Origin: Scilla litardierei
Lineage: Eukaryota > Streptophyta > Magnoliopsida > Asparagales > Asparagaceae
DNA: 64,000 nt
Assembly (NCBI GenBank): GCA_030789695.1
Contig: CM061140.1
Span: 79,050,422 to 79,114,421 of the forward strand
Direction: 5' to 3'
Numbering within the stretch: position 1 is the first letter of the stretch; every line of letters begins with the position of its first letter. Positions 4,638 through 62,019 of this stretch are shown here, piece after piece. The notes beneath the pieces were generated by a model. The model was not told the DNA's origin, did no database searches, and was given only the letters and a program-made list of their open reading frames with translations. A program made the translations under genes and the position numbers.

Positions 4638-4643
4638 GACCAC

Positions 4644-7990: not shown

Positions 7991-8238
7991 TGACGTGCAT
8001 TTATATTTTATATATTCACGCACGTCTTCTTCGTGTTTTTCTGTTGTTTTCCTGTGTTTCGTATCCATTCTCTCGTGATTTTTAGTTTTCTTTCACTTTC
8101 TTTGTGTTTTTGTGCCGTTGCAGGAGATTGCCAGCGTTGGGGACATATATAGCAGATATCATGAGTCCCCAGAGCAACGGGAGGTGCCATGCGCGATCTC
8201 GAGGGCTAAACGTCGAAGAATGCCATATATCAGCCCTC

Positions 8239-8630
8239 AACCGATCGGTTAGACAGACCCAACCGATCGGTTCTTGCACGCGTATCTGACCCGGACAGAA
8301 GCAGCAATGAAGAAGAGCCCACCCGATCGGTTCAGTGATCGGGTGGAGCCACAGTCCTCTCTGTTTTTGGAGCTGCTTCCCAACCGGTCAGTCAACCCGA
8401 TCGATTCAGTGATTGGATGAAGCCGTAGTGCTCTCTGTCTTATGGAGCTGAATTCAAACCGATCAAGAGACATATCACCCGATCGGTTCATCTGTAGCCG
8501 AATTCTCCCAGCTCACGACCCGACGACATCAACCGATCGGTTCAGCGACCGGTTGATGTATCTCCAAAGCTAAAGATGAAGTTGACGTCCGTCTCACCCG
8601 ATCAGTTGATGCTTCAATCGATCGGGTGGA
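8239..8630 (+). repeat. ACCGATCGGTT/ACCCGATCGG dyad array in Athila LTR
   Basis: Roughly ten dyads centred on CGATCG (CAACCGATCGGTT, CACCCGATCGGTTC, ATCGATCGGGTGG) spaced by 15-50 bases. The last ends about 10 bases upstream of the TATA box at 8639. Some copies have decayed by C-to-T or G-to-A change. Confidence 0.9.
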
Positions 8631-8638
8631 CACGTATC

Positions 8639-8646
8639 TATAAATA
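8639..8646 (+). promoter_or_regulatory. LTR TATA box
   Basis: TATAAATA followed by CAACCCTAGG. The same box is at 62012-62019 in the related LTR. Confidence 0.75.
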
Positions 8647-9591
8647 CAACCCTAGGTTTTTCCCAGAACGCATCCCCAGTTATTTTTCTGTCTTTTTGGA
8701 ATTTTTGACGGCTCCGAATTTATTCTGTCTTGTAAGATTTCTGATTGTTCTGAAACTTTGATATTACGTTAATACAATTGTTAGCTCCGTATTTCTATTA
8801 CTTGATTTTGATTCTAATGGCTAAATTTTGTTGTGTTGATATTTTTGCTATGAATCGTGAGTAGTTCCCCAATCTAGGGCATTGGTGGAAGCCCCTTCGT
8901 GGGTTCTCCCTAGAACGACCATAGGATTAGGAATTCGATATGATTTAGGAATTTAGATGGTTATGCGGGGCGTTTCATTGTCATTGATAGGAGAAAGACC
9001 GCCTCTGACCGTCGGGCCAAGGGGAAATAAAACTGGCGTTTGATCCCCTAGCCACAGCTCACACCCCTAGCATAGACATTGAATACTAGCGCATGGGAAC
9101 AACAGGATGAAATGTTGGGAGTAATCGTTGCGAGCTTAGTGCTCCCGGAGTCGGTCGTTGTTAATGGACATGGGAATGCTCACCGCCTGAACCCGGGTAG
9201 ACCTAGCGTATCATCCTGGGCATCGACCGGAATATCGGGCCTATGGGATGCTAGGTATCACTCTTAGAGGCAACGTCTCACCACTAAACCCTAGAATCCG
9301 ATCGTATTCCTATCTGTTGGTCGTAATAGAGAGATGATAGGGTGGAAACCAAAGTCCTAGGTTCCCTTTTATATCTTACATCCTTCGTATTTCTATTTCG
9401 TGACAACCAACCGATTGATCGGGCTAGCTCACCCACCGGGTGATCCGGTTCCTCCTTGATAACAAGCACAACACATGCCTCACTGAGTTCGACTCCCAAG
9501 CCACACTACAACACCGTGCGCTTGTTGTTACAAATATTTAAATCTGGTATCCCCGATCCCACTGCATATATTGCTAAATCTAGGGACGTCA

Positions 9592-14149: not shown

Positions 14150-14455
14150 TGATCGGTACATATTTTACACCTTTTTTCTGCATATTTGCATGTCATTTCG
14201 GTTGCTCATATTGCGATTTTCGCGATTATTCGATGATATTGTGTTACTTTTCACTATTTCTTGTTTTCGTCGGATTTCAGGAAATATGAGCAATTAGGAG
14301 AAAAAATGAGCTTAAAGGACTTGCAGGCGTAACGGAGCCTCACTCATGGACTTATTGAGGACCTATCAGCGATAGAAGACGAGTGGAAGAAGAAAGAACG
14401 TCGTAGGAGTGACGAGGAAGCGAAATGATGAAGATTGGGCATTTTCAGCATGCCA

Positions 14456-15105
14456 CTCGGCCGAGTGAAGGAGTCACTCGGCCGAGCAAAGAAGCCTGCT
14501 CGACCGGCCAGATCGGACACGCAATTACTTGAAGATTAGCGTGCACTCGGCCGAGTGACGACATCCCACTCGGCCGAGTATGGATACACCACTCGCCCGA
14601 GTGGCACACGAACGACAGCATCCAAAAGAGCCGACTTACTGGAATTTTACAGTTGATCTCAAAGATCCTTTGGAGACCGACTCGGCCGAGTAGAGAAGCC
14701 CACTCGACCGAGTGGAGAAGTCCACTCGACCGAGTGATGCCGAGAACACGCAGCGCCCAGATTTTCAGATAGCCTTCTACTCTTTTGAAATCTGCTATCA
14801 TTCTAGAGGTCAAAGTATTTTTCTCATATTTTTTATGGATAGTATACTTCATGACGGTTCCAACGCCACCAAGAATGCATCAATCGGAAGTCGGATGAAA
14901 TCTGGGGAATTTCTGCAAGTCGATGCTGCAGTGCTGGAATTCGCATGTCAGTGTCACTCGGCCGAGTGACATTTCCACTCGGCCGCGTGAGATTCCCACT
15001 CGGCCGAGTGACTAGTTTTTGCCAGTTTTTGACAGAGTGCTGTTCTCTGGAAATTTTGCAGGAATTCCCACACGGCTGAGTGAGCTTTCCACTCGGCCGA
15101 GTCGC
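14456..15105. repeat. CACTCGGCCGAGTG palindrome array
   Basis: About fifteen full or partly decayed copies of the perfect 14-bp palindrome CACTCGGCCGAGTG, in two clusters (14456-14740 and 14953-15105). They lie upstream of the TATA-like box. The array is repeated in the other LTR at 20285-20935. Confidence 0.92.
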
Positions 15106-15196
15106 GACTGGCGCAGAACTTAACTTACGCGCAGAATTAGTTTCGGGCGCGGGTTTCGGGGGTTTTTGGGCAGTTTTGTTAGGGTTTTTTGGGGGC

Positions 15197-15204
15197 TATT
15201 TAAG
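15197..15204 (+). promoter_or_regulatory. TATA-like box of non-autonomous gypsy LTR
   Basis: TATTTAAG in GGGGGCTATTTAAGGGG, about 90 bases after the last dyad. The copy in the other LTR is at 21031. Confidence 0.5.
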
Positions 15205-15585
15205 GGGTTTGTAGCCACCATTAGAGGAGGTTCCCTTGATGTTTTCTTAGAGTTTATTTTAGAGGTTAGGCCATGCCCTAGGCCTCCTCTTGGATCAAAA
15301 AGCTTGTATTTGGATTGGAATTCTTCATCAAAGCTAAGTATTTCTATTCTTATTATTTTAATCTTTGATTTGCTATCTTTTTACATGCAAGCAATTGTTT
15401 TTATCGATTCCTATATCATTATTGCTATGCTTGAGTAGATTTGATGTTCTAGGGCATGGGGATGAACCCTATGGATCTAATTTCAGATTTGTGATGAATG
15501 AATTTCTAAATTGCTAGAATTGCTAGGAGGTTAGGTTGTGATTGATTTACTACGGATAGCTAGGGATTTCCATCGATTTGGGATT

Positions 15586-15862
15586 TGCAAGAGATTGGAT
15601 TCTAATCGATGGGAAGGCCTAGATATTCGATTTAGATTTACAATTGGATTTCTCTAGATTTGGTTTGCAAGAGATTGGACCAAAGCTAGGATTTTTAATT
15701 GTAAATCTATACACATATTCGTTTGCAAGAGATTGGACGAATACGAACTATCACAACCTAGATCGTAACTCGAGTTTGCACGAGAGTTGGCTCGAGGGGC
15801 GATTGAACGATGATGTCGATCCTAATGCTAGCGGCTTAGGCTAGGGTTTGCAAGAGATTGGG
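15586..15862 (+). repeat. TTTGCAAGAGATTGG dispersed direct repeats
   Basis: Copies occur near 15586, 15663, 15721 and 15846, with a decayed TTTGCACGAGAGTTGG near 15775. The spacing is irregular. The same set is found at 21418-21695. Confidence 0.85.
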
Positions 15863-16316
15863 CCCTACCTTAGGTTTGCTATAGACCGGCAATAGCGCGA
15901 GAGCGTGAGCTTGATTCTCTATTCAGTTACGACTAGTTCACCTCAACACAAGTCTAGTAATATTGAGATTCACTATTTACAATGATGTATGACGAGCCGT
16001 AGTGGGAATTCCCTAGCCCTAGACACTTTTATTATATTGTATTTGAATCGATATTTGACCGACTTCTCTATCTCCGACACCGACATCCATCACCATTGCC
16101 ATTATATCATACCATAGCCATCTCCACCAATAAAACCATCATAGTCAAACCAACCTAGGATAGATTGGAGCCAACACCACCTCCTCGTGTTCGATACCCG
16201 CTCGCCACTACGCCGTGCGCTTGCGGTAAAACTACAATCGTTCTCCGGGTGTATATCCGGGGCCGACCAAGTTTTTGGTTGTGCTCTTGGGTTGCATTTT
16301 GGAGCGATCAAGTTTT

Positions 16317-19983: not shown

Positions 19984-22144
19984 TGATCGGTCCATATTTT
20001 ACACTTTTTTCTGCATATTTGCATGCCATTTCGGTTGCTCATATTGGGATTTTCGCGATTATTCGATGATATTGTGTTACTTTTCACTATTTCTTGTTTT
20101 CGTCGGATTTCAGGAAATATGAGCAATTGGGAGCAAAAATGAGCTTAAAGGACTTGCACGCGTAACGGAGCATCACTCATGGACTTATTGAGGACCTATC
20201 AGCGATAGAAGACGAGTGGAAGAAGAAAGAACGTCGTAGGAGCGACGAGGAAGCGAAATGATGAAGATTGGGCATTTTCAGCATGCCACTCGGCCGAGTG
20301 AAGGAGTCACTCGGCCGAGCAAAGAAGCCCGCTCGACCGACCAGATCGAACACGCAATTACTTGAAGATTAGCGTGCACTCGGCCGAGTGACGACATCCC
20401 ACTCGGCCGAGTATGTATACACCACTCGCCCGAGTGGCACACGAACGACGGCATCCAAAAGAGCCGACTTACTGGAATTTTACAGTCGATCTCAGAGATT
20501 CTTTGGAGACCAACTCGGTCGGGTAGAGAAGCCCACTCGACTGAGTGGAGAAGTCCACTCGACCGAGTGATGCCGAGGACACGCAGCGCCCAGATTTTCA
20601 AATAGCCTTCTACTCTTTTGAAATCTGCTATCATTCCAGAGGTCAAAGTATTTTTCTCATATTTTTTATGGATAGTAGACTTGATGACGGTTCCAACTCC
20701 GCCAAGAACGTGTTAATCGGAGGTCGGATGAAATCTGGGGAATTTCTGCAAGTCGATGCTACAGTGCTGGAATTCGCATGTCAGTGTCACTCGGCCAAGT
20801 GACATTTCCACTCGGCCGAGTGAGATTCCCACTCGGCCGAGTGACCAGTTTTTGCCAGTTTTTGACAGAGTGCTGTTCTCTGGAAATTTTGCAGGAATTC
20901 CCACTCGGCCGAGTGAGCTTTCCACTCGGCCGAGTCGCGACTGGCGCAGAACTTAACTTACGCGCAGAATCAGTTTCGGGCGCGGGTTTCAGGGGGGTTT
21001 TGGGCAGTTTTGTTAGGGTTTTTTGGGGGCTATTTAAGGGGTTTGTAGCCACCATTAGAGGAGGTTCCCTTGATGTTTTCTTAGAGTTTATTTTAGAGGT
21101 TAGGCCATGCCCTAGGCCCCCTCTTGGATCAAAAATCTTGTATTTGGATTGGAATTCTTCATCAAAGCTAAGTATTTCTATTCTTATTATTTGAATCTTT
21201 GATTTGCTATCTTTTTACATGCAAGCAATTGTTTTTATTGATTCCTATATCATTATTGCTATGCTTGAGTAGATTTGATGTTCTAGGGCATGGGGATGAA
21301 CCCTATGGATCTAATTTCAGATTTGTGATGAATGAATTTCTAAATTGCTAGAATTGCTAGGAGGTTAGGTTGTGATTGATTTACTACGGATAGCTAGGGA
21401 TTTCCATCGATTTGGGATTTGCAAGAGATTGGATTCTAATCGATGGGAAGGCCTAGATATTCGATTTAGATTTACAATTGGATTTCTCTAGATTTGGTTT
21501 GCAAGAGATTGAACCAAAGCTAGGATTTTTAATTGTAAATCTATACACATATTCGTTTGCAAGAGATTGGACGAATACGAACTATCACAACCTAGATCGT
21601 AACTCGAGTTTGCACGAGAGTGGGCACGAGGGGCGATTGAACGATGATGTCGATCCTAATGCTAGCGGCTTAGGCTAGGGTTTGCAAGAGATTGGGCCCT
21701 ACCCTAGGTTTGCTATACACCGGCAATAGCGAGAGAGCGTGAGCTTGGTTCTCTATTCAGTTACGACTAGTTCACCTCAATACAAGTCTAGTAATATTGA
21801 GATTCACTATTTACAATGATGTATGACGATCCGTAGTGGGAATTCCCTAGCCCTAGACACTTTTATTATATTGTATTTGAATCGATATTTGACCGACTTC
21901 TCTATCTCCGACACCGATATCCATCACCATTGCCATTATATCATACCATAGCCATCTCCACCAATAAAACCATCATAGTCAAACCAACCTAGGATAGATT
22001 GGAGCCAACACCACCTCCTCGTGTTCGATACCCGCTCGCCACTACGCCGTGCGCTTGCGGTAAAACTACAATTGTTCTCCGGGTGTATATCCGGGGCCGA
22101 CCAAGTTTTTGGTTGTGCTCTTGGGTTGCATTTTGGAGCGATCA
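19984..22144 (+). repeat. 3' LTR of non-autonomous gypsy
   Basis: Starts TGATCGGTCCATATTTTACA, ends GGAGCGATCA, and is 2161 bases long like its partner. It carries the palindrome array at 20285-20935, TATTTAAG at 21031 and the TTTGCAAGAGATTGG repeats. Confidence 0.92.
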
Positions 22145-30598: not shown

Positions 30599-30981
30599 CT
30601 AGTCGGTTTCAGTTCACTTGTCAACCGACTAGATGCTCATCTAGTCGGTCAGCAAATGAACTCAGACCGACTAGATCAAGCCAATATCCATCTCCTATCA
30701 TTTTCTTTCGTTAGTCGGTCATAGTACACTTTCCGACCGACTAGATTGAAAACTAGTCGGTCAGTAAGTATACTGAGACCGACTAAATCTAGCCCTAAAA
30801 ATCACTCTGAGCTACTGTTTCGACTTAGTCGGTTCAAGCTCATTGACCGACCGACTAGATCGTAATCTAGTCGGTCAGTGCTTGAACTGTGACCGACTAA
30901 GTGTGTTAGGGCAGTTGAGTCTTTTCGCTTCCCGACCGACTTATACTCGATCTCGTCCGACTAAATTCTCATTTAGTCGGT
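30599..30981. repeat. Internal CTAGTCGGTC dyad array upstream of ORF3
   Basis: Alternating CTAGTCGGTC and GACCGACTAG with the same spacing rules as in the LTR array. It lies between the pol stop (30354) and the ORF3 start (31298). The sister element has one at the same place (47010-47283). The linkers differ from those of the LTR. Confidence 0.9.
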
Positions 30982-31297
30982 CTTCTCTTTTGCTCCAGCC
31001 CGAAAACCCCAAACCCCCTCTCGAAACCCTTCGTCTTCCGGCCGTTTCTCCGTCGATCGCCGCCGTCCGCCGCCGTCGACTCCACCCCCTAGGTATCTCC
31101 CTCCCTCTCCTAGGTCGATTTTCTATTCTAGGGTTGTCTCTCCTTGTTTTCAAGCTCTAGATCCTAGGGTTTCAATTTCTAACCTAGGGCTTGTGATTTT
31201 CGATTTCATTTGGTGTTCTAGGGTTTTATGCTAGCTTCTAGGTTTTGTGCTTAGGGTTGTTGAACCTCTGTGATTACTTGCTTGTGCTCGTAGTGCT

Positions 31298-32953
31298 ATG
31301 GCTAAGACTAGAATTCCGATCGCCTCTTCCGGGGCTTCTCCTATGACCGTAGGGCCTTCCGACCCTAGGAATCCCCCGAAGCCTAAGCGTCGTGCCAAGT
31401 CTACCTAAGGCTCTCCATCTTCGCCTCCTCCTAAGAATCCTAGGACTGCCATAGTTAAACCCCGTAAATCCAAGACCAAAAAGCCTATTCTTCACACTCC
31501 GGCTACTCCTCCCGATTCCGATACTGATTTTATCCCAGAGGATGAGCCTACTAGGGAACCTACCCCACCTCCGAAGACCCGTAAGGCCAAGGGTAAAGCT
31601 CCTATGCCAGTTGGCGGTGTAGACATATCATTGTGCCGCGATGACCCTCAGTGTCTCGCCGCGTACAACCGTATAGAACACTGTCCACTGTTGTTGGAGC
31701 ATTACGTTCAGTTCTCTGATTTTCTCGGCCTTGCTGATCTTCTGTCTTATAGTGGCCTTCTAGATTATCTCCGATACGACCCCAAGGCCAATCCCAAACC
31801 GTACCCTCGCCTCGTGAAATTGTTCTATGCCAACCGTATTCGAGGCCAGTACGACGCCAGTCACTCCATTGAGACGACTGTCTTGGGAACTCCTATAGTT
31901 CTCACGGCCGAAATCTTGGGGGAGATCCTTGGTTGTGCGTCGTGTGGTCTCCTCCCCTCGGACATTTCCGTAGACGACATTTCTTCCTTGGATCAGTCTA
32001 TTCTTTCAGAGATTTTCTAGGTTATCCCCTCCGCATTCATTGGTGTTCCATCGAAATCTTTTAAGCCGAATGCGTGGGTTCTTAACCTGATTTTGAAGTC
32101 GTGTCTCCTCCCTAAGTATGGATCCTCTTCACTCCCCTCTCAGCCGTTTTTGAAGCTCATATACGCTCTTTTCTTGGGGTGCGAGATAAATTGGGCTCGC
32201 GTGATACTCGATAAGATGGATTCTTTCGAGTGTATACGCAAGACCAATAAGTCTGCGCACATTCCATACCCCTGCTTGTTGACCCTCGTATTTCGTCATT
32301 TTCGAGTTCCCCTCCCTCCTGACGATGAGCGTCCTTTGGGTACGCCTCTGAACGCGACGGCCGTGAAGAAATCTCTAGCGGCTCTTCGTCACGTGCAGAG
32401 GTCTACCGCATCTGCTTCCCAGTCTACTCCGTCAGCTGCTGCAGCCTCGTCTTCCCCTGCTACTTTGGACGATGTCGTACGTCTACTTCGTCAGCACGAC
32501 TCCCGTTTGGCTCGTACTGAGGAGGTAGTCTGCCGTATGGCTCGTATGATGGGGATTGAGCTTCCTCCTTCGGTGTCTGAGGCCGAGGAGATGGACGATG
32601 AGGAGCTTGACGAGCTTGTCACTTCTCTTGCCCGTGGCGATGAGGCCACTGCTGCTGCTGTTACTGGTACTTCCACTTCTGCTCCTGGAGTTGGCACCAC
32701 TTCCGGTGTTCCAGAGCCTTCTGCTTCAGCACTTCAGTCTTCTGAGCCTGCTGTAGACCCTGTTGCTGAGCCTGCTGATATTCCTGCTGACACATCTGAT
32801 GTCGAGACCCATGCTGCTGTAGAGCCTGTTCCTGAGATCTCGACTCCTGCCCCGACGATTCCATCTGTTGAGACACCTCTACTCCCTGCAGATCCTGAGT
32901 CCACTCCGTCGACTGGACCCACGAACGCTGCAGATCCAGCCTCCTCCTCGTGA
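31298..32953 (+). pseudogene. SIRE-type ORF3, two in-frame stops
   Basis: One frame from ATG 31298 to the stop ending at 32953, broken by TAA at 31406-31408 and TAG at 32018-32020. The intact relative is at 45210-46757. It has a basic, Pro/Ser-rich N-terminus (KPKRRAKS), then KAPMPVGGVDISLC, LVKLFYANRIRGQYD, KLIYALFLGCEINWARVILD and LLTLVFRHFRVPLP, and a long Ala/Ser/Thr/Glu/Pro-rich tail. The pattern fits the putative plant transposon protein family often labelled envelope-like. No signal peptide or clear membrane helix is visible. Confidence 0.8.
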
Positions 32954-33923: not shown

Positions 33924-34339
33924 TGTTGAATATTGGACTCCCCGGATTTGGTTTTGGATGATGAGCAAACATAAATAATTCATGAACTAACAATTTGTGA
34001 GCGCAGTATTGGAGATCGTCGCCAATTTCACGTGAACATTCAAAGCGACATCTCAACACTTTCCCAAGCTCATATTCATGCCTAAAGCTTCGTTGAAGCT
34101 CTTGCGACGCTTTGGATAATATGAAGATTCAATCGAAGCTATCGAAGACCGTTTATTAAGGTTTTATTTATAGTCTTTTAGCTTCGATATATAGAATGTT
34201 AAGCCTTGAGTATATCTTACGTCTATATCTTCATTACGCTCATTTCGTAGCTCTAGGATCCTTGCACAAGTTCATTCTAACTTCCTCGAAGCGTCGCGCT
34301 TCGATTCGGACTTTGTTGTGCATGTTAGTTGGTACAAGA

Positions 34340-34870
34340 ACAAGTACTGACCGACTAGATGGTGATCTAGTCGGTCGGCAACTGTTCTTGGACCGACTAG
34401 TTTGATTCCTTAAATTCTTGGACTTTACTGTTTACAGTTAGTCGGTCTACGTTGACTCACCGACCGACTAGTTTGTGAACTAGTCGGTCAGTGATGCTTC
34501 TTTGACCGACTAGTTGAGACTTACTGTTCACTCTAAAATTCTCCTAAACTACTGTTTACCGTTAGTCGGTCTAAGAACGTTTGGTGACCGACTAGTTGAC
34601 AATCTAGTCGGTCAACTTTTGTTCTTGGACCGACTAAGTCAACTTGCCTTCAGACTATGTTGTTTTGCCTCTTAGTCGGTCTACGTTCATTGGATGACCG
34701 ACTAGTTGTGAAACTAGTCGGTCAGACAGTGTTCTTGGACCGACTAGATTTCTAGGTCTGAAATTCTATCTCTTCTCAGATCTGCTCTTAGTCGGTCCAT
34801 GCTTTGTGACTGACCGACTAGTTGATGAACTAGTCGGTCAGTGAGTGTTCTTTGACCGACTAATTCTCAT
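34340..34870. repeat. GACCGACTAG/CTAGTCGGTC dyad array in SIRE LTR
   Basis: Five units of about 112-124 bases. Each unit is a large dyad: 10-mer, 14 bases, inverted 10-mer, 8 bases, 10-mer, 14 bases, inverted 10-mer. One 8-base centre is exact at 34349-34376 (GACCGACTAG, ATGGTGAT, CTAGTCGGTC). Linkers contain ACTGTTTACAGT-like sequence. Confidence 0.93.
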
Positions 34871-34917
34871 AGATTTCTTTCCGTTGGAGATTGACCTAAC
34901 TTGTTTTTATGGGACCC

Positions 34918-34925
34918 TATAAATA
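34918..34925 (+). promoter_or_regulatory. LTR TATA box
   Basis: TATAAATA in GACCCTATAAATACGAACC, about 55 bases after the last dyad. Confidence 0.7.
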
Positions 34926-35665
34926 CGAACCTAGGTCATTTCTATCTTCAATAGAGCTGCCATTAAGAGATTCATTGAGTTCTAAAGAGATAGCTATTCT
35001 CCCTCAAATCAAAAGCTCTCTTCCTCACAAGAAACACATTCTCTCTCATTTCTAGATCTAGAGAGAAGCTTGTTCTTGGTGAGCTCTTCAAGCTATTGCT
35101 TGATTCAAGTTTCCAAATCTTCCCTAGGCACCCATTGCTGCTCATTTCCTTGGTGCTAGGGTTTAGTGACTTCATCTTCCTCAAATCCTTCATTCCACCT
35201 ATTGGGTAAGAAAAACTCAAGGTATAGGATTTTGTGGTAAGAGTATTTATTTCATCTAAACTCTTTTATATTGCTTATTGGCTCTCTCGGTTGTGAGAGA
35301 AGTTTGTGATCCCGGGTTGTGGGATTCACTTTGCCATTGCATGTATGATTTGATCTTGTGAAGGTTTTTTCACAAGATATTCATAGTGGAAATCTTGAGT
35401 TAGGGTTTCTAACTCAAGTATCCGGAAGGGATCCGGGTGGTTGGGACGTAGGATCACCGGGAACAAGTCGGGGAGACTTGGGTGGATCCGAACCCATTAA
35501 CATCGTTTGTTAGCATTGTTAATTTCATTGTTGTCATTCAATTTAAGCTTCCGCAAATTGATTTGGTAGTTGTGTGCAATTTAATTTGGAATTATACGCC
35601 TTATTATTTTAAAGTACTATTCACCCCCCCTCTAGTACTTGTGCAGTAGCTGGTAGGGCATTACA

Positions 35666-39710: not shown

Positions 39711-40169
39711 TGTTAGTTATTGGTTTTTTAGACCAATATTGTTTTGATGGTGATCACAACATTATGTTGTTTATAATTACTCTCAATGTTTTAGTCTCAT
39801 GATTAACAATTGAAGAATAGTATTTTGGAGACCAAAAGCTTGGTGCAAGGATGGACATCAAGAGGAGCATTGCCAAAGCTTGGAACTTGATGAAAGAAAG
39901 CTCATCAAGTGGCGCCAGAGCTTGGAAGATGATGTGGAGATCAAGGATACTCATCCATGAGGACTCGGACTCTAGGAGAAGCAAATTGTAATCCATGTAA
40001 TTCTTATTAGTTGCTTTTCTCTTTTTGAGTTTAGGAATTTGTAATGCCTTGATTAGATGGTCTCATTCATTCATGCATATGCATCAACCATCTTAAAGAA
40101 CCTTAGGATCATCATAGAATCCAACCCAATTGGTTCCACATACCATGAACTCTTATTGGAGTCTCTGGC

Positions 40170-40700
40170 CTTCCTTCAGGCATCTGCTGATGGCAAGATA
40201 GGTAATTGGTGGTTCACGAGACCCCTAGCCAGCCTTCTACAGGCGGCTGATCTGCACAGCTCAAGTCAATATTTTCTGCACTCTTAATTGAGTTTTTGGT
40301 GCAAGCAAATGAAATAAAAAAGATAGGCGCATGCCAACCATCAGGCGCCTGAACATTGTTCATCAGTCGCCTATGTGCCAAAGTGCGTAATTTGTCAATT
40401 TTGAGCATCACTCCATCTTATGTGTCAGCCGACTGATGTAGAGTTTACAGTCGCCTGTCAATCCTCAGGTGCCTGGACTTTGTTCATCAGTCGCCTAAAT
40501 CCATAAGTGCGTAAGTTGACATTTCTCAGCTCCAATTCCATCCTATGTGACAGTCGCCTGACGAAGTCTTTACAGGCGTCTGCACAGTTGTTCAAGTGCC
40601 TTTGTAGTCTTCTACAGTCGTCTGTCCTGGCTCAGATTATAGTCGTCGGGATTTTTATAGCCGTTGATCAGGCGCTGACCATTGTTTTGCAAGCGCATGT
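40170..40700. repeat. CAGGCGCCTG/CAGTCGCCTG dyad array
   Basis: Full or decayed copies such as TCAGGCGCCTGAAC (40342) and CAGTCGCCTG variants, ten or so in all. They lie upstream of the TATA box and are repeated at 57015-57530 in the other LTR. The array is more degraded than those of the other families. Confidence 0.75.
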
Positions 40701-40784
40701 CCAAGCTGTTTTCTGCCAAATCTAGCCGTTGCAGATTTATTCCTTTGGATTTTTTGCTTTGGTTTAAGGGGTCTTGTGGCTTCC

Positions 40785-40792
40785 TATATATA
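40785..40792 (+). promoter_or_regulatory. LTR TATA box
   Basis: TATATATA in CTTCCTATATATAGGAG. The other LTR has TATAAATA at 57613-57620. Confidence 0.65.
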
Positions 40793-41374
40793 GGAGATGG
40801 CCTAGTTGTATTAGAACTCTTGGTTAACATTGAAGATCATTAATAATCTTTAAAGCCACTCCTATTTCTCATTTCCCTCTTTTGAGCCCTAATCCTCTTC
40901 ATGCATTGAAGCTAGCTCGGGAAATCCTCCAAATGCAATCAAAGCACATCTCAACAATTGGAGATCTTCTTTCATGCCTTGCATTCAACTTTTGAGTAAG
41001 TTCATCTCATTAAGGCATAGGTAAGAGTCTATTTATTTCATCTTTGTAATTGAAACCCTAACTCTCTTTGTGGGAGTTAGTTACTCTCTTTGTGTGAGTT
41101 TGGTACTCTCTTTGTGGGAGTTAGTTACTCTCTTTGTGGGAGTTCAAATCCATTGTGTAGGGTATCCCTTGTGTAGGGATTGTATTCACTACCTTGTGTA
41201 GGATCATAGTGAATATTGGAGTGGCTAGATGTACCCAAGTTAGGGAACCATGGTAAAATCACTTGTGTTTGCGTTTGCTTGATTGTGTGTAATAATTTCC
41301 CCTTGCACTTATTATTCTGCATTTGCAAGTTTAATTTTAATTACACAATTATTTCCATTACACTATTCACCCCC

Positions 41375-41376
<2 letters not shown>

Positions 41377-41425
<49 letters not shown>
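41377..41425. repeat. GT microsatellite
   Basis: About 49 bases of GT repeats. The equivalent position in the 3' LTR (58161-58177) has only about 17 bases. Confidence 0.95.
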
Positions 41426-41428
<3 letters not shown>

Positions 41429-42557: not shown

Positions 42558-44288
42558 TATAATGCCCTACGAAGCTACTGCACAAGTACTAGAGGGGGGG
42601 TGAATAGTACTTTAAAAATAATTAAGAAGATGATTCCTAATTATCTTGCAAACTCAACCAACAATGCGGAAATGTAAATATTGTCAACAAAGAAATGCAA
42701 TCGCAAACAGACAATATAACGGGTTCGGATCCCCACAAGTCTCCCCGACTTGTTCCCGGTGATCCTACGTCCCAAACACCCGGATCCCCTCCGGATACTT
42801 GAGTTAGAAACCTCTAACTCAAATTTGCACTATGAAATACTTGTAGAAAACCTCTACAAAGTCAAATCATACACAAAAGAAATTGTGACTCACACAACCC
42901 GGGATCACAAACAAACTCTCACAACCGAGAGTAAATCACTTGCAATATTCAAAGTAAATGAAATGTGAAATTCTTACCGACAAAATCCTATGCCTCGAGT
43001 AAACTTACGAATTAGGGCAAAGAAGGATTTTGGTGAAGATGGAGGCACCAAACCCTAGCTCCAAGTAAATGATCAGCGATGGGAGGCTAGGAAGATGTTG
43101 GTGACCTAGAATCAAGCTCTCGGCTTGTAAGGCTCACAATCAATGAATCTCTTTTTTGAAATAAGAGTGAGTGAGAGATTCAAGTGAGAAATGAAAGAGC
43201 TTTGAATGAGGATTAAATGCTTCTCTTTGATTCTCTAAAGATCAATTAATATCAGCCTTGAATGCTATGAAAGTAGCACTCCAAGTATATATAGGATATA
43301 GGAAAGAGAGAGCAAAATTTGTGGCATTTAATGCTCCAACGACTCTATTCTGAAGCAGACTAGCCAGTCAAAGAAGGACCACTGACCGACTAGATTCACA
43401 TTTAGTCGGTCGGTGAAACAACATGGACCGACTAACAGGTGAACAGCCAAAAGAAGAAGTTCAGGGAAAGATGAACTAGTCGGTCTAAGAAGACTTGCCA
43501 ACCGACTAGTTTCACAACTAGTCGGTCGGTGAGTGTTCTTTGACCGACTAATAGCTGAAATAGAATAGGCTGTATCCAAAGACAGCTAGTCGGTTTAAGA
43601 ACAACTTCCAACTGACTAGTTTCTCAACTAGTCGATCGGTCGTTGTGCTTTGACCGACTAACTGTAAACAGTAAGTTAGGCTCAAAAAATGGAAGCTCAA
43701 CTAGTCGGTCTAAGAAGGATTCCTAACCGACTAGTTTCACAACTAGTCGGTCGGTGAACCTTCTTGGACCGACTAACTGTAAACAGTAACTGAGCTGAAA
43801 TTAAACAAGGCATTCTAGTCGGTTCAAGAAGCATTACCGACCGACTAGATTGCCATCTAGTCGGTTGGTTCTTCTTCTTGAACCAACTAACATGCACAAG
43901 AAGCCGCGATGAGAAGCATTAAGCTTCGGGAAAGATTCTATGGGCTTCTAATAAGATCCTAGCTCTAAGATATGAGCGTTATGAAGATAAAAATGTAAGA
44001 CCTATTCAAGTCTTAAAAATCTACGAAACGAAGCTAGAAGACTATAAATAAAACTTGACGAACCGTCTTCAAAAGCTTCAATCGAATCTTCTTGACTTCA
44101 ATAAAGGTCCTTGAGCTTCAACGAAGCTTCAAGCATACGATCACGCGCTTTGAGAAGTCTTGAGACGTCGCTTTTGATGTTCATAGAAATTTGACGACAA
44201 TCTCCATAACTGCGCTCACAAAGAGTTAGTTCACGATATTTATGTTTGTTCATCATCAAAACCAAATCCGGGGAATCAATACTCAACA
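42558..44288 (-). repeat. 3' LTR of minus-strand SIRE element
   Basis: 1731 bases. On the minus strand it starts TGTTGAGTATTGATTCCCC and ends GGGCATTATA; the partner ends in TACA. It contains the dyad array 43363-43893 and TATATATA at 43286-43293. Confidence 0.93.
43363..43893. repeat. CTAGTCGGTC dyad array in 3' LTR
   Basis: Five units of alternating 10-mers with C-to-T or G-to-A decay in some copies (for example ACTAGCCAGTC at 43358 against ACTAGTCGGTC in the other LTR). Confidence 0.92.
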
Positions 44289-45209: not shown

Positions 45210-46757
45210 TCAGGAGGTGGAGGTAGGGTCAGTAGCAGCAGCAGGCTCTGCAGGAGGAGTGGTGGTCACTGGGTCAGCAGGAGTGTCCACAGACGGGAGA
45301 GTCGCTACGGGAGTGGCCTCGGGAGCACCAGACGAAGTATCCACTGAAGGTATGGTGACAGCAAGTATGCTCTCGGGGGCACCGGCAGAAGTATCAGCAG
45401 CAGCAGACGTACCCTCAGGGGCACGTGCATCAGATCGAATAAGCTCATAGAGCTCATCCTCATCCATCTCTTCCTCGTCAGAAATAGACGGAGGAATCTC
45501 AAGGTCCAAGTGATAGCAAATGCGAGCTAGCATCGCCTCAGAACGAGCACAACGAGACTCCACACGTCTCAACGAAAGTGCAAACTCAGCGAGAGTAGGA
45601 ACAGGAGGAGGAGCAGAAGCAGAAGCTGAAGGAGTCGTCTTCTGAACGTGACGAAGCGTCACAAGAGACTTCTTGACGGTCGTCGCATTTAGAGGAGGAC
45701 CAAGAGGACGCTCTTCATCGGGAGGGAGAGGGACCTTAAAGTGACGGAAGACGAGTGTCAAAAGGCAAGGGTATGGGATGTGAGCAGATTTTGTGGATGT
45801 CCTAATACACTCAAAGGAATCCATCTTATCAAGAATAATCCTAGCCCAATTGATCTCGCTCCCCATGAAGAGAGCGTAGATTAGCTTAAGGAATGGCTGG
45901 GATGGCAAGCTCGATGAGCCGTACTTCGGAAGGAGGCACGACTTCAGGATAAGATTTAAAACCCATGTGTTTGGCTTGAAGGACTTTGAAGGGATGCCAA
46001 TCATGGCGGGATGGATCACATGGAACATCTCGGCGAGCATCGCCTGATCAAGAGCAGAAATGTCATCGACAGAGATATCAGCTGGAAAAAGGACAGAAGA
46101 GGAGACACCTATCAAATCCCCTAAGATTTCTGTCGTGAGGACTATCGGTGTTCCCAAGACAGTCGTCTCAATGGAATGGGTCTTGTCATACTGACCATGA
46201 ACACGATTCGCATAGAAAAGCTTGACTAGACGGGGGTACGGGTGTGGGTTCACCTTAGGGTCATGGCGAAGATAATCTATGAGACCACTATGAGAAAGAA
46301 GATCGGCTAGATGTGGGAAGTCGGCGAAGTGCTCCAATAGCAGAGGACAGTGCTCAATACGGTTGTAAGCCGCGAGACACAACAGGTCATCGCGACACAA
46401 CGATATATCTACACCGCCCACTGGCATGGGAGCCTTCTCCTTAGGCTGACGAGTGCTAAATCGAGGTGGAGGAGTAGGATCTCTAGCGGTATGCTCGGTC
46501 TCCGGAATATATTCCGTGTCAGAGTCATCGAGAGGAGTGGGAGCATGGAAAGAAGCTGGAGACACAGTCTGCTTCCTAGGCTTAGGCTGAGATCTAGGCT
46601 TGGCGGTCGCCGTCCTCTTCTTCTTAAGAGGAGGCGAAGAAGACGATGGATGGGTAGATTTGGCACGGCGTTTGGGTTGCGGGGGGTCCGTAGGCGGAGA
46701 CTTTACGGTCATAGGAGACGGACTCGAGGGTCGGATGGGGATGCGTGTCTTCACCAT
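45210..46757 (-). CDS. SIRE-type ORF3, intact
   Basis: A 515-residue open frame downstream of pol. The N-terminal 110 residues are Pro/Ser-rich with two basic clusters (PKRRAKS about residue 29 and LKKKR about 45) that look like nuclear localisation signals. The core follows: KAPMPVGGVDISLC, YNRIEHCPLLLEHF, LVKLFYANRVHGQYD, VLGTPIVLTTEILGDLIG, KLIYALFMGSEINWARIILD and LLTLVFRHFKVPLPPDEE. A short coiled-coil-like helix comes next (ALSLRRVESRCARSEAML), then an acidic patch (SDEEEMDEDEL) and an Ala/Thr/Pro tail. This is the putative plant transposon protein pattern. No signal peptide and no strong membrane helix is visible, so the name envelope-like is positional only. The upstream internal dyad array lies at 47010-47283. 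Confidence 0.85.
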   Translation of the reverse strand: MVKTRIPIRPSSPSPMTVKSPPTDPPQPKRRAKSTHPSSSSPPLKKKRTATAKPRSQPKPRKQTVSPASFHAPTPLDDSDTEYIPETEHTARDPTPPPRFSTRQPKEKAPMPVGGVDISLCRDDLLCLAAYNRIEHCPLLLEHFADFPHLADLLSHSGLIDYLRHDPKVNPHPYPRLVKLFYANRVHGQYDKTHSIETTVLGTPIVLTTEILGDLIGVSSSVLFPADISVDDISALDQAMLAEMFHVIHPAMIGIPSKSFKPNTWVLNLILKSCLLPKYGSSSLPSQPFLKLIYALFMGSEINWARIILDKMDSFECIRTSTKSAHIPYPCLLTLVFRHFKVPLPPDEERPLGPPLNATTVKKSLVTLRHVQKTTPSASASAPPPVPTLAEFALSLRRVESRCARSEAMLARICYHLDLEIPPSISDEEEMDEDELYELIRSDARAPEGTSAAADTSAGAPESILAVTIPSVDTSSGAPEATPVATLPSVDTPADPVTTTPPAEPAAATDPTSTS

Positions 46758-47009: not shown

Positions 47010-47283
47010 GCACCGACTAGAAAGAGAACTAGTCGGTGCGGAGGGGGGTATAAGTCGATCGGAATGCGAAAAGATGCAACAGTCCATGTGCAATTAGTCG
47101 GTCACAGTTCAAGTGCTGACCAACTAGATGACGATCTAGTCGGTCGGCCAATGAGCTTGAACCGACTAAGTGCAAACAGTAACTGAGGCCAAAATTAGGG
47201 CTTGAGTTAGTCGGTCTGCATTCATTCACTGACCGACTAGAACGCAATCTAGTCGGTCGGTCAATGAACATGAACCGACTAAA
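47010..47283. repeat. Internal dyad array upstream of ORF3
   Basis: GCACCGACTAG...CTAGTCGGTGC pair at 47010-47041, then CTAGTCGGTC-type dyads to 47283, between the ORF3 start and the pol end. This is the same position as in the plus-strand element. Confidence 0.9.
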
Positions 47284-52957: not shown

Positions 52958-54686
52958 TGTAATGCCCTACGAAGCTACTGCACAAGTACTAGAGGGGGGG
53001 CGAATAGCACTTTAAAATAATTAAGAAGATAATTCTTAATTATCTTGCAAACTCAACCAACAATGCGGAAATGTAAATATTGACAACAAAGAAATGCAAT
53101 CACAAACAGACGATATAATGGGTTCGGATCCACACAAGTCTCCCCGACTTGTTCCCGGTGATCCTACGTCCCAAACACTCGGATCCCCTCCGGATACTTG
53201 AGTTAGAAACCTCTAACTCAAATTTGCACTATGAAATACTTGTAGAAAACATCTACAAAGTCAAATCATACACAAAATAAATTGTGACTCCCACAACCCG
53301 GGATCACAAACAAACTCCCACAACCGAGAGTAAATCACTTGCAATATTCAAAGTAATTGAAATGCGAAATTCTTACCGACAAAATACTATGCCTCGAGTA
53401 AACTTACGAATTAGGGCAAAGAAGGATTTTGGGGAAGATGGAGGCACCAAACCCTAGCTCCAAGTAGATGATCAGCGATGGGGAGGCTAGGAAGATGTTG
53501 GTGACCTAGAATCAAGCTCTTGGCTTGGAAGGCTCACAATCAATGAATCTCTCTTTTGAAATAAGAGTGAGGGAGAGATTCAAGTGAGAAATGAAAGAGC
53601 TTTGAATGAGGATTAAATGCTTCTCTTTGATTCTCTAAAGATCAATTCATATCAGCCTTGAATGCTATGTAAGCAGCACTCCAAGTATATATAGGATAGA
53701 GGAAAGAGAGAGCAAAATTGTGGCATTTAACGCTCCAACGGCTCTATTCTGAAGCAGACTAGTCGGTCAAAGAAGGACCACTGACCGACTAGATTCACAT
53801 TTAGTCGGTCGGTGAAACAACATGGACCGACTAACAGGTGAACAGCCAAAAGAAGAAGTTCAGGGAAAGATGAACTAGTTGGTCTAAGAAGACTTGCCAA
53901 CCGACTAGTTTCATAACTAGTCGGTCGGTGAGTGTTCTTTGACCGACTAACAGCTGAAATAGAATAGGCTGTATCCAAAGACAGCTAGTCGGTTTAAGAA
54001 CAACTTCCAACCGACTAGTTTCTCAACTAGTCGGTCGGTCGTTGTGCTTTGACCGACTAACTGTAAACAGTAAGTTAGGCTCAAAAATGGAAGCTCAACT
54101 AGTCGGTCTAAGAAGGATTTCTAACCGACTAGTTTCACAACTAGTCGGTCGGTGAACCTTCTTAGACCGACTAACTGTAAACAGTAACTGAGCTGAAATT
54201 GAACAAGGCATTCTAGTCGGTTCAAGAAGCATTGCCGACCGACTAGATTGCCATCTAGTCGGTTGGTTCTTCTTCTTGAACCAACTAACATGTACAAGAA
54301 GCCGCGATGAGAAGCGTTAAGCTTCAGGAAAGATTCTATGGGCTTCTAATAAGATCCTAGCTCTAAGATATGAGCGTTATGAAGATAAAAACATAAGACC
54401 TACTCAAGGCTTAACAATCTAGGAAACGAAGCTAGAAGACTATAAATAAAACTTGACGAACCGTCTTCAAAAGCTTCAATCGAATCTTCTTGACTTCAAT
54501 AAAGGTCCTTGAGCTTCAACGAAGCTTCAAGCATACGATCACGTGCTTTGAGAAGTCTTGAGACGTCGCTTTTGATGTTCATAGAAATTTGGCGACGATC
54601 TCCATAACTGCGCTCACAAAAAGTTAGTTCACGATATTTATATTTGTTCATCATCAAAACCAAATACGGGGAATCAATACTCAACA
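52958..54686 (-). repeat. 5' LTR of minus-strand SIRE element
   Basis: 1729 bases, near-identical to 42558-44288. Dyad array at 53757-54275 and TATATATA at 53686-53693. Confidence 0.93.
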
Positions 54687-54691
54687 GGTAG

Positions 54692-56548: not shown

Positions 56549-58211
56549 TGTCAGATATTGATGTTTTAGACCAATATTGTTTTGCTGATGATCACAACAT
56601 TATGTTGTTGCTAATGACTCTCAATGTTTTAGTCTCATGATTAAAAATTGAAGAATAGCATTTTGGAGCCCAAAAACTTGGTGCAAGGATGGACATCAAG
56701 AGGAGCATTGCCAAAGCTTGGAACTTGATGAAAGGAAGCTCATCAAGTGGTGCCAAAGCTTAGAAGATGATGGGAAGATCATGGCTACTCATTCATAAAG
56801 ACTTAGACTCTAGGAGAAGCAAATTGTAATCCATGTAATTCCTATTACTTGCTTTTCACTTTTTGAGTCTAGGAATTTGTAATGCCTTGATTAGATGGTC
56901 TCATTCATTCATTCATATGCATTAACCATCTTAGAGAACCTTATGATCATCATTGAATACAACCCATTAGGTTCCCCATGCCATGAACTCTTATTGGAGT
57001 CTCTGGCCTTCCTTCAGGCGCCTGCTAAAGGCATGACATGTGACTGGTGGTTCATCAGGCGCCTGGCCAGCCTTCTACATGCGGCTAATCTACAGAGCTC
57101 AAGTCAAACTCTAACTTGAGCTATTGATGCAAGCGACTGAAGTACAAAAGATAGGCATCTTCCATCCATCAGGCGCCTGGACATTGTTCATCAGTCACCT
57201 ATGTGCCAAAGTGTGTAACTTGTCAATTTTGAGCATCAATCCATTTTGTGTGTCAGTCGACTCATGTAGAGTTTGCAGTCACCTGTCATTCCTCATATTC
57301 CTGGAATTTGTTCATCAGCCGCCTGAATGCACATGTCTGTAAGTTGACATATATTAGTTCTATTTCCATCCCATGTGACCGTCGCCGGACGAAGTCTTTA
57401 CATGTGTCTGCACAGTTGTTCAGGCATTTGTAGTCTTCTACATCTGACTGTCCTGGCTCAGATTATAGTCGTTGAGATTTTATAGCCGTTGATCAGGCAC
57501 TTGACCCTTGTTCTATAGGCGCCTTTCCAAGCTGTTTTCTGCCAAATTCTAGCCATTGCAGATTTGTTCATGTGGACTTTTTGCTTGGGTTTAAGGGGGT
57601 TTTGTGTCTTCCTATAAATAGGAGATGGCCTAGTTCTATTAGAACTCTTGGTTAACATTTAAGATCATTAAGAATCTTTAAAGACACTCCTATTTCTCAT
57701 TTCCCTCTTTTGAGCCTTAATCCTCTTCATGCATTGAAGCTAGCTCAAGGAAAATCCTCCAAGTGCAATCAAACCACATCTCAACACTTGGAGATCCTCT
57801 TCCATGCCTTGCATTCAACTTTGAGTAAGTTCATCTCATCAAGGCATAGGTAAGAGTCTATTTATTTCATATTTTTGATTAAAACCCTAACTCTCTTTGC
57901 GGGAGTTAGTTACTCTCTTTGTGGGAGCTCAAATCCATTGTGTAGGGTATCCCTTGTGTAGGGATTGTATTCACTACCTTCTGTAGGATCATAGTGAATA
58001 TTGATGTGGCTGGATGTACCCAAGTTGGGAAACCATGGTAAAATCTCTTGTGTTTGTGTTTGCTTGATTATGTGTATTAATTTTATCTTGCACTTATTAT
58101 TCGGCATTTGCAAGTTTAATTTTTAATTACACAATTATTGCCATTACACTATCCCCCTTAGTGTGTGTGTGTGTGTATGTTATTCGTATTGCAAGGTAGA
58201 CGGTCCTTACA
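56549..58211 (+). repeat. 3' LTR of gag-only copia
   Basis: 1663 bases ending GGTCCTTACA and followed by TAGTG. It is shorter than the 5' LTR mainly because of a shorter GT tract and a missing copy of the CTCTTTG...GGGAGTTAGTTA repeat. Confidence 0.9.
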
Positions 58212-60296: not shown

Positions 60297-61384
60297 TATA
60301 TGAAAAGTTCTATTCATATAAAACCATTAAATTCCCATATCTGTAGCTCATGCAAGCAACCCTTTCCCCATTTTTTAACGATTGGACTCGTTTAATTTGT
60401 TCTGCATGTTCTATATCCCCGAACTATTAATTTTCAAGTGAAATCTTCAAGATTCAATCGTTCATCTAACCATTGCAAATGTTCTAATACGATGAAACTG
60501 TTAAACTTGCGACAAATAGATAAACGAGTAAAACTCCTTAGATTCACTGGAAAATTTATGTTTTAGAGTTATACAATATGAAAATCAAACAGAATGGTTC
60601 GGATCGAACGAAAATATAAAAAGGTGAGGTGTAACATCCATATCACATTCTCATCGATTTTCATGTAAAAAATAATTTTAAAATTAAATTTTATTTTTTT
60701 TGGTGATTTTCTATAATTTTTCATATTTTATTTTTATTATTCTTATCTCCTACCTGTTAACCCACTTAACTAAACCCGACCCGACCGTTCCTTAATCAAT
60801 ACCAGCTCTCTACATCTCTCTTATCTTTTTTCTTCTCGTTTTCTTTGCTTTTCTATCATGTCTTTCTTTTTCCCTCTTTCGTCGCATCACCACACCTCTG
60901 TACCAACGCATCAGCTCGTCGTTGCATGGTGATGTGGGGTGCAACGATGTAGCCTACGCTGACCCTACCTCCTACGTCCCTCTCTTTGACGTCTCTCTCA
61001 ATTCTTTTCCCAACTTTTTTTCTAAACTCTAACCGTAACTGAATTTCTTTTTCTGAGATCTCTCTCTCATTTTCTTGAGCTTGATCTCTCTCCATGCTTT
61101 CTAATCACCAATGTAGTCCCAATTCTATCTTGGTGGAGGCAATAGTAGCCGTAGATGTCCATGAGGTGGCAAGGTCACCCGACGATGATCAACAATTTTA
61201 TCTTCAACTCTAGTGACATGTAGATCCTTTGAAATTATTTTACGGTCTCGATAAACTTGGCCACTCTTAATGTTTATTGAATTTTGAAACATTTTAAGTG
61301 GTGATGAATTTATTGGACATCAACCCTATTTTCCATGATATGGGGTTTTCCCTTGCCATGATGCTTCATTGAGCTATTTGGGTT
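60297..61384. other. Unassigned AT-rich DNA
   Basis: No gene is supported. GTGTAACATCC at 60630 could be an LTR start (TGTAACATCC), with AT-rich DNA following. Nothing else is placed. Confidence 0.4.
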
Positions 61385-61632
61385 TGACGTGCGTTTATAT
61401 TTCATATATTCATGCACGTTTTCTTTTGTATTTCTCCGTGTTTTTCCGCCGTCTTTTATTCGTTTTCTTGTATTTTCTCGTTTTCTTTCACTTTTCTTTG
61501 TTTATCCATGTTTGCAGGAGATTGACCGTGTAGGGGACGTTTAACGACGATATCTCAAGTCCCCGGAGCAACGGGAGGAGTCACACGTGATCCAGGGGGT
61601 CAAACGCCAAAGAATACATCTTTCAACCCCTC

Positions 61633-62001
61633 ACCCGGTCGGTTGGTCATCTCCAACCGATCGGGTGATGCACGCGTGCACCACCCGGTCTCAGCCGGAG
61701 CTCATATGGAAGTCACCCGACCGGTTCACAGACCGGTTCAGCGGGGGCCTGTTCTCTGTTTTTTCGAGCAGAATTCCAACCGATCGGGTGACTCTCACCC
61801 GATCGGTTCATCTGTAGCTGATGATGAGAAGCTGAAGGCACGGGCACCCAACCGATCACCTCACCCGATGGCGCCAAGATCCAACCGGTCACTCCAAGAA
61901 CTCACCCGACCGGTTCATATGATCGGGTGAAAGCTCGCCTATTTCTGTTCATTATCTGTAACGGGTCACCCGATCGGTTGACTTGTCAACCGATCGGGTG
62001 A
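61633..62001. repeat. ACCCGATCGGTT/AACCGATCGGGT dyad array
   Basis: About twelve copies, including variants in which the central GATC is replaced (ACCCGGTCGGTT, CCGACCGGTT). The last two are separated by TGACTTGT and face each other. Confidence 0.9.
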
Positions 62002-62011
62002 TGCGAGAGTC

Positions 62012-62019
62012 TATAAATA
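62012..62019 (+). promoter_or_regulatory. LTR TATA box
   Basis: TATAAATA followed by GAACCCCTAGG. Confidence 0.75.

Follow-up and report, generated by a model that had tools for sequence, protein, structure and literature searches.

The window, by which we mean the whole stretch of 64,000 nt analysed here, comes from Scilla litardierei (GCA_030789695.1, CM061140.1:79,050,422-79,114,421, forward strand) and holds SIRE-type copia and Athila elements together with non-autonomous copia and gypsy elements, the LTRs of which carry arrays of short dyads. The SIRE and copia features are given below; the 12 kb SIRE element 42560-54686 is nested within the non-autonomous copia element 39711-58180, whose LTRs are 86% alike.

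2..854, minus strand: SIRE LTR fragment, array at 32-429
30600..30982, plus strand: SIRE internal dyad array of 15 half-sites, in the linker between pol and the extra ORF
31298..32953, plus strand: SIRE extra ORF region, in which no single ORF of at least 200 aa runs from its ATG; the open piece 32093-32953 matches PF20167 at 30.6 bits (below the cut-off of 45)
33924..35665, plus strand: SIRE-type copia LTR, by BLAST to the LTR pair 42560-44288/52960-54686
34349..34862, plus strand: dyad array of this LTR, 19 half-sites GACCGACTA/TAGTCGGTC in quartets spaced 23-19-23
34918..34925, plus strand: TATAAATA of the same LTR
39711..41399, plus strand: LTR of the non-autonomous copia element, CAGNCGNCTG array at 40240-40624, TATATATA at 40785
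42560..44288, minus strand: SIRE LTR, pair 96.6% identical, array at 43384-43866
45210..46757, minus strand: SIRE extra ORF, 515 aa, PF20167 (Transposase_32) at 59.5 bits (cut-off 45)
47011..47281, minus strand: SIRE internal dyad array upstream of the extra ORF
52960..54686, minus strand: partner LTR of the same SIRE element (pair of 42560-44288), array at 53760-54264
56549..58180, plus strand: second LTR of the non-autonomous copia element, sites at 57015-57325, TATAAATA at 57613-57620

The Athila and gypsy features are:

4293..4632, plus strand: Athila internal dyad array (ACCGATCGGT, core CCGNNCGG)
4643..4657, plus strand: TATA-like CTATATTTACATAAA after the Athila internal array
5068..6060, plus strand: Athila extra ORF, 330 aa, PF20167 at 24.1 and PF03078 at 19.2 bits, both below cut-off
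7989..9542, plus strand: Athila LTR region, array at 8240-8626, TATAAATA at 8639-8646
14150..16310, plus strand: LTR of a non-autonomous, probably Athila-clade gypsy element, array at 14455-15102, TATTTAAG at 15197-15204
19984..22144, plus strand: second LTR of this gypsy element (97.4%), array at 20288-20935
61383..62913, plus strand: second Athila LTR region, array at 61634-61998, TATAAATA at 62012-62019

A little beyond the first Athila LTR lies a tandem repeat of ~105 bp units that are 75-80% alike (10149-10723), and a DUF247 ORF (24415-25605, minus strand, 396 aa, PF03140 at 196.6 bits) is situated between elements, beside a 500-base N run (25635-26134).

A sequence-only reading of this DNA had named dyads and TATA boxes in SIRE, Athila, gypsy and copia LTRs, and both were found at the places it gave, with one amendment in copia, where CAGGCGCCTG occurs exactly once in the cited range and the looser CAGNCGNCTG is present instead. 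With site calls allowing up to 1 mismatch, all sites lie upstream of the TATA box in 11 of the 12 LTRs examined (SIRE, gypsy, copia, and one Athila), as that reading had it, and the exception is Athila LTR 61383-62913, where 2 of 12 sites are downstream. In SIRE LTR 33924-35665, 19 of 19 sites are upstream of the TATA box and none elsewhere in the LTR, which is the placement by which the RM boxes discussed below are recognised. For the array scan, the window was combined with a 200 kb sample, drawn as 20 stretches of 10 kb from fixed positions across ten contigs, and a 700-bp window was flagged when it held a 7-mer at least three times and the reverse complement of this 7-mer at least three times on the same strand. 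This flagged 71 of 718 such windows versus 1 of 3590 dinucleotide shuffles, an enrichment of palindromes over shuffled sequence; the 71 include windows in L012, L013, L018 (9101-9800), L019, L020, L025, and L027 that have no element assignment. Across 3.68 Gb of the genome, with the same pattern reversed as control, CACTCGGCCGAGTG was counted 130,572 times (1 reversed), CAGTCGACTG 173,485 times (1,500 reversed) and CCGACTAG-N4..14-CTAGTCGG 317,154 times (13 reversed), so the arrays are multi-copy and not restricted to single copies. The dyad words bear on the make-up of the genome, as the commonest 10-mers of the 200 kb sample, low-complexity words excluded, are SIRE and gypsy dyad words; CAGTCGACTG surfaced as a further dyad in this list. 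Among the contigs, G000:C13 measures 824.7 Mb, more than twice the next largest with a length shown (C4, 357.7 Mb).

The broader statements of the earlier reading had to be narrowed. It had every LTR family carrying an array, and this fails in two ways: L010, L013, L021, and L027 contain direct-repeat pairs, probably LTRs, that lie clear of all flagged windows, and one copia family, treated below, has an extra ORF but only a weak non-CpG motif. The four families had also been called unrelated, and most plausibly fall into two lineages, one of SIRE-type copia and the other of Athila-type gypsy. The gypsy family is not unrelated to Athila because its relative L028, whose LTR is 76–77% identical to that of the window non-autonomous gypsy, has a gag 45% identical to the window Athila gag; its extra-ORF piece matches PF03078 (ATHILA) at 24.0 bits (cut-off 20.2). 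On the copia side, L015 is a relative of the window copia LTR at 69–70% identity, and L024 is SIRE-type, with a pol of 77% DNA identity to the window SIRE and an extra-ORF piece of 41.7% protein identity. What L015 and L024 share is limited to 109 bp at and about the LTR start, plus the dyad with its spacing of 22 bp; otherwise unlike LTRs with one operator are what would be expected of a non-autonomous element and its partner. With two lineages involved, whose extra ORFs are possibly related (PF20167/PF03078), the proposed independent convergence of four families is not supported.

Besides the LTR arrays, the elements contain second, internal arrays that had been missed before (4293-4632, 30600-30982, and 47011-47281), and the dyads are almost confined to these two places, i.e., the LTR upstream of the TATA box and the linker preceding the extra ORF. 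In gag-pol, the extra ORF, the part of the LTR after the TATA box, and the interior of both non-autonomous elements they are absent or single, and 15,200 bp of background in the window contain 4 SIRE half-sites and 0 of the other three words. For instance, of the sites in the minus-strand SIRE element, 17 fall in one LTR and 10 in the linker, compared with 1 in 5658 bp of gag-pol and 0 in the ORF. L028 carries 11 LTR sites and 8 linker sites, with 0 elsewhere, while 0 sites were found in the 3673 bp interior of the non-autonomous gypsy and 0 in the 3022 bp interior of the non-autonomous copia, the only ORF-less SIRE relative examined. The LTR motif equals the internal motif in all four lineages that have both (GACCGACTA in SIRE, CAGTCGACTG in L024, ACCGATCGGT in Athila, and ACTCGGCCGAGT in L028), these lineages forming two related pairs in which L024 and L028 are each represented by a single copy and copies within one family are non-independent; in the SIRE array 30600-30982 the spacing also equals that of the LTR array.

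First-look candidates for extra ORFs in the genome numbered 25,844 for PF20167, 33,173 for PF03078, and 45,543 for the SIRE protein, among which 150, 92, and 84, respectively, were scored. An internal array upstream of the extra ORF was present at 14 of 14 SIRE loci, taken from the 84 scored matches, and at 10 of 10 Athila loci, taken from the 92 (weaker at L051). The Athila order is dyads, TATATAAA or TATAAATA, and a leader whose borders look intron-like by eye, after which L042 has an ORF starting MAKDKDKGKGIMREEEPSRKRRK. The internal Athila array of the window counts 5 sites at 1 mismatch and 8 at 2 mismatches. In Athila and in the gypsy copy L028 the internal dyads adjoin a TATA box. In the 150 bp that follow the internal arrays of SIRE and L024, no consensus TATA could be detected.

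Neighbouring sites are often 19–23 bp apart, which corresponds to two helical turns, and this recurs in all four families, with exceptions. The SIRE half-sites are arranged in quartets of the form R-23-F-19-R-23-F. In the window, the 200 kb sample and the 14 loci upstream of SIRE extra ORFs, 143 of the 147 R-to-F pairs stand 23 bp apart and the remaining four 22 bp, and the F-to-R distance is 19 bp in 87 of 142, the other 55 being variable gaps between quartets (43–60 bp, one of 83); 19 further neighbour pairs are same-strand. The short dyads have the order CCGAC-N-GTCGG, the order CGG..CCG occurring only in the 23-bp pairs, and their spacer is 8 nt in 21 of 21 cases in the window (4–14 allowed); among the genome matches listed, the first of the 317,154, the spacer is constant in length and varied in sequence. 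In five arrays each, compared with 2000 random placements, 19–23 bp separates 30 of 49 neighbours in gypsy (random mean 4.8, maximum 12), 18 of 37 in CAGTCGACTG arrays (3.8, maximum 13), and 10 of 26 in Athila (1.9, maximum 7). The exceptions are copia LTR 56549-58180, with 0 of 4 distances at two-turn spacing, and the Athila LTRs, which have neighbours at 12–13 bp too. The L024 quartets (two internal, one LTR) are spaced 22-19-22, i.e., they have the SIRE geometry with a different motif. From the last dyad to the TATA-like box there are 23–24 bp in 11 of 11 Athila internal arrays and 24 bp in L028, and to the TATA box of the LTR 22–23 bp in both Athila LTRs, 64 bp in SIRE LTR 33924-35665, and 97–106 bp in the LTRs of gypsy (window and L028), L015, and L024. 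In the two window copia LTRs no TATA lies within 150 bp after the sites, their TATA boxes being further downstream.

The helical spacing, the fixed Athila TATA distance and the second location are the reasons for which we favour DNA operators over hairpins in the transcript. The alternative is selection of the dyads for hairpins, of RNA or of single strands, at the U3 transcript end, as the sequence-only reading had also considered for RNA, or their persistence as small-RNA hotspots, which we regard as improbable. The arrays do fold far below shuffles (z −14.9 for SIRE, −5.1 for Athila, and −11.6 for gypsy) and adjacent palindromes are able to pair with each other, but folding follows from any array of palindromes and hence gives no independent support, and a loop-free palindrome is unable to fold alone. 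Covariation is present in the SIRE short dyads, where the first inner pair swaps A-T and T-A (53 of 65 complementary against an expectation of 31) and the fourth outer pair swaps A-T and G-C (34 complementary against 23), and this two-sided change is equally compatible with a hairpin and with a symmetric dimer; in the copia doublets the counts are 11 of 28 within dyads and 12 of 28 across dyads. A separate dyad, GCACCGACTAG-N8-CTAGTCGGTGC, is found downstream of the quartets near the SIRE extra ORF in L052-L065 (at positions ~390–460 of the oriented loci), and 7 of its 15 copies are fully symmetric, 2 of them via double changes (L052 and L062), which also counts for hairpins, with 8 one-sided; its position is where transcription might start, and it could be an autorepression site. 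Published work lends the hairpin account further weight, palindrome regions in maize being small-RNA hotspots according to the excerpts available (PMC5311732, PMC10760457). On the other side, the R-to-F pairs have no extra complementarity in their spacer, yet their 23-bp spacing is equally fixed, and a fixed distance to the TATA box has no role in a transcript hairpin.

Conservation of the sites was analysed with a rule that calls a site wherever either or both of the sequences hold an exact word of 6 to 10 bases, a definition biased towards conservation; under the same rule, the SIRE LTR pair, which reflects change after insertion, gave no conservation signal (differences at 5 of 152 positions inside sites and at 50 of 1574 outside them). 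Between SIRE lineages (33924-35665 vs 42560-44288), in contrast, the differences amount to 4 of 152 site positions, 129 of 332 array spacer positions, and 330 of 1221 remaining positions, the spacer counts leaving out CpG positions, and the site contrast has a Fisher p of 0.001 when every non-site position serves as the reference and of 0.0001 when the array spacers do. Four other pairs of SIRE lineages show 0–5 site differences per 144–152 positions. Purifying selection on SIRE sites between lineages is thus supported, and the contrast within pairs versus between lineages indicates that the sites are free to mutate after insertion and are kept in the lines that reproduce. At the loci upstream of SIRE extra ORFs, diversity is 0.043 in sites, 0.191 in spacers and 0.317 from there down to the ATG, the site columns having been defined from the same sequences and being therefore biased to low values. 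Outside the sites of the SIRE pair, CpG positions changed in 12 of 98 cases versus 38 of 1476 other positions, as expected for methylated DNA.

SIRE is the only clean case. With CpG positions excluded from the spacers throughout, 34 of 121 site and 274 of 878 spacer positions differ in Athila, 32 of 132 and 112 of 316 in copia, and 43 of 138 and 174 of 365 between gypsy and L028; positional conservation of sites is thus little or none in these three comparisons, and in Athila, copia, and distant gypsy the motif persists as its sites turn over. The two gypsy LTRs against L011 gave 7 of 97 and 6 of 87 site positions, with 78 of 363 and 82 of 370 in spacers. Within LTR pairs, the figures are 5 of 129 sites and 18 of 456 spacer positions for gypsy, and 23 of 106 and 48 of 364 for copia.

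These data also bear on the notion that tandem duplication produced the arrays incidentally and that they are carried along, without function, by elements that succeed. The SIRE short dyads recur every ~109–116 bp and the array stretches are 68–77% alike, as such an origin would have it, but the 0–5 site differences per 144–152 positions beside spacers that diverge by 24–39%, the lower site than spacer diversity near the SIRE extra ORF (0.043 vs 0.191, with the bias just mentioned), and spacer lengths that are fixed inside quartets and variable between them all argue against it. For SIRE this reading is disfavoured, and overall we judge it highly improbable.

The term env-carrying is customarily applied to the SIRE and Athila lineages. 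Against the Pfam cut-offs used (45 bits for PF20167 and 20.2 bits for PF03078), the SIRE protein P0001 (59.5 bits) and L070 (59.4 bits) exceed that of PF20167, and four Athila ORFs, L066-L069, score 97–108 bits with PF03078. The latter also match PF20167 at E 6e-5 to 5e-4, below cut-off, and the SIRE and Athila extra ORFs may be related through these two domains; a direct hhalign comparison detected no similarity, with 0.19% probability and 0.11% for the reversed control, on shallow profiles. The window Athila extra ORF (5068-6060) is 32–33% identical to Athila extra ORFs elsewhere in the genome. For the SIRE extra ORF, no homologue at E ≤ 0.001 was found in the protein collection (7999 candidates scored), and no solved structure matched at E ≤ 1. 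Basic clusters resembling nuclear localisation signals are seen in the sequences near the N-terminus, namely KKKR in SIRE, KRKK in L024, RKRRK in Athila L042, and KRKR in L028.

We interpret the arrays as double-stranded DNA operators of a family-specific regulator, probably the extra-ORF protein, a reading in which our confidence is evenly divided. Each element lineage would have a short dyad of its own, arrayed upstream of the LTR promoter for the most part at intervals of two helical turns, and one sequence-specific nuclear protein would bind it as stacked dimers on one face of the helix. The same protein would control two promoters, that of the LTR and an internal one formed by the array before the extra ORF. 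Its presumed source is the extra ORF itself (PF20167/PF03078 type, with the basic NLS-like stretch), which is the most economical candidate because motif and ORF travel together in four lineages under a constant geometry. The product would be a self-specific activator or anti-silencer that also regulates its own gene, repression being the alternative sign of the effect, and non-autonomous relatives would retain the LTR operator and borrow the protein of a partner. The spacing, the geometry, the second location, and the selection on SIRE sites lend partial support to the dimeric, family-specific DNA-binding factor that the sequence-only reading had envisaged, and the pattern suggests that each family may make its own switch protein.

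The dyads could instead be bound by host transcription factors, each family having become tuned to its own host regulator and the internal array bringing the same factor to the extra gene, which we consider unlikely. Most of the observations are compatible with a host factor. Location, spacing, and selection fit it equally well, and LTR arrays persist in families in which the copies inspected revealed neither an internal array nor a matched extra ORF; moreover, Sirevirus boxes matched mainly stress-factor sites in PLACE, as far as the excerpt available states (PMC2829016). One geometry (19–23 bp) serving at least four motifs is nevertheless easier to obtain from one diverging protein family, and motif identity tracks the element lineage at both locations.

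The existence of a PF20167 carrier family without CpG arrays also favours host factors, and this family is a counter-example to the pairing of operator and ORF. It is a copia family with a long extra ORF directly after pol and has the highest PF20167 scores, and 0 of 10 of its loci (of the 150 scored) have a native CpG dyad array upstream of the ORF, the upstream array at L030 being inserted SIRE DNA. The 3 kb downstream stretches expected to hold the LTR (LTR ends judged by eye) contained arrays in 0 of 3 cases, with a small AGTCGAC cluster at 2590-2720 of L039, beyond the expected LTR. Instead, TGTTG words, some of them in 12-bp direct repeats, occur before and inside the LTR (L039-L041; upstream in L032-L037), and TGTTGCAACA precedes the ORF in several copies; these words may constitute a second, non-CpG motif system. 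At L030 1-2101, two SIRE-derived pieces lie inside and beside a PF20167 ORF, and one LTR tail is 97.6% identical to that of L014.

Parts of this picture are established, and the comparisons made here rest on excerpts of the cited papers. The RM boxes of Sireviruses (Bousios et al. 2010) are described there as palindromic, with a CGG-CCG core, forming CpG islands, and with one consensus per element in 8–32 copies; they lie upstream of the LTR TATA, elements that have the 'ENV' ORF carry further copies in the linker preceding it, and among copia elements the boxes are called specific to Sireviruses (PMC2829016). The SIRE arrays in LTR and linker are of this kind, the CGG..CCG order being confined here to the 23-bp pairs, so that SIRE boxes and their ORF-linked linker copies are already known (PMC2829016). 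The Athila extra-ORF loci and the gypsy with Athila-like gag share the layout, yet are not Sirevirus boxes, and relative to that excerpt the two-turn spacing, the Athila unit of dyad and TATA, and the geometry kept under motif change are features of the present arrays; here the ORF in the SIRE 'ENV' position matches PF20167. In maize, Sirevirus palindrome arrays in the LTR cis-region were characterised as hairpin-capable and as small-RNA hotspots (Bousios et al. 2016, via PMC5311732 and PMC10760457), an account based on RNA structure and small RNAs, whereas the spacing and second location seen here point rather to DNA binding. Extra ORFs between pol and the 3' LTR, as in our elements, are also found in sunflower Athila, whose aORF matches PF20167 and is predicted to be nuclear (PMC11728184), in Retand, whose TRP28 ORF has a domain predicted to bind DNA (PMC11963269), and in Grande, whose gene23 has a reported promoter of its own (PMC7264820), the last two being antisense; compared with the excerpts on these systems, dyad arrays matched to the LTR and tied to the ORF are the feature of the present case. 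The function of such ORFs is called unproven or unknown in this literature (PMC2829016, PMC7264820, PMC11728184). In open-access full text, with subscription literature mostly outside the search, we found no prior description of Athila arrays or of matching LTR and internal motifs, and in the same open-access text none of an internal dyad-TATA unit, the two-turn geometry, geometry under motif change, or the conservation contrast.

VANDALs are DNA transposons. The VANC/VANDAL anti-silencing system is the nearest working analogue, on the excerpt available: arrays of a family-specific short motif in non-coding DNA, also at the elements' own genes, with VANC binding and demethylation shown experimentally, and with VANC6 and AT9TSD1 as an unrelated element with a common target motif (PMC5735166). 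Family-specific non-coding arrays that include the presumed regulator's own gene are alike in both systems; the VANDAL motifs stand in one orientation (PMC5735166), whereas the arrays here are palindromic or strand-alternating and are putative binding sites. By this analogy we propose, tentatively and with somewhat less than even confidence, that the env-position ORF of the two env-carrying lineages would encode, instead of an envelope, a self-specific, dyad-reading regulator with its own operator promoter, a counterpart of VANC that would activate or un-silence the LTRs of its family, and whose two-turn dimer array, with freely evolving recognition, would keep co-resident families and their non-autonomous hitch-hikers on private channels. 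If a self-specific regulator of this kind exists, the pairs of dyad and ORF would provide a matched set of proteins and targets from one genome, with hundreds of thousands of operators, and would show how many retrotransposon families coexist in a nucleus without cross-activation and how non-autonomous families attach to a partner, in addition to offering an explanation of Sirevirus palindromes by DNA binding in place of hairpins.

Some sampled arrays are of other kinds. That all of them are LTR-borne was considered and rejected, as the L016 array appears by eye to consist of subterminal repeats of a DNA transposon, with GTTCGTGAACAAGCTCG-like words at 8050-8800 between inverted ends GGGCTGTTGATGAAC. 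Arrays of the GC-rich palindromes GGCCATGGCC and CCCCTGCAGGGG, without element assignment, occur at L019 3950-4500 and L020 6130-6400.
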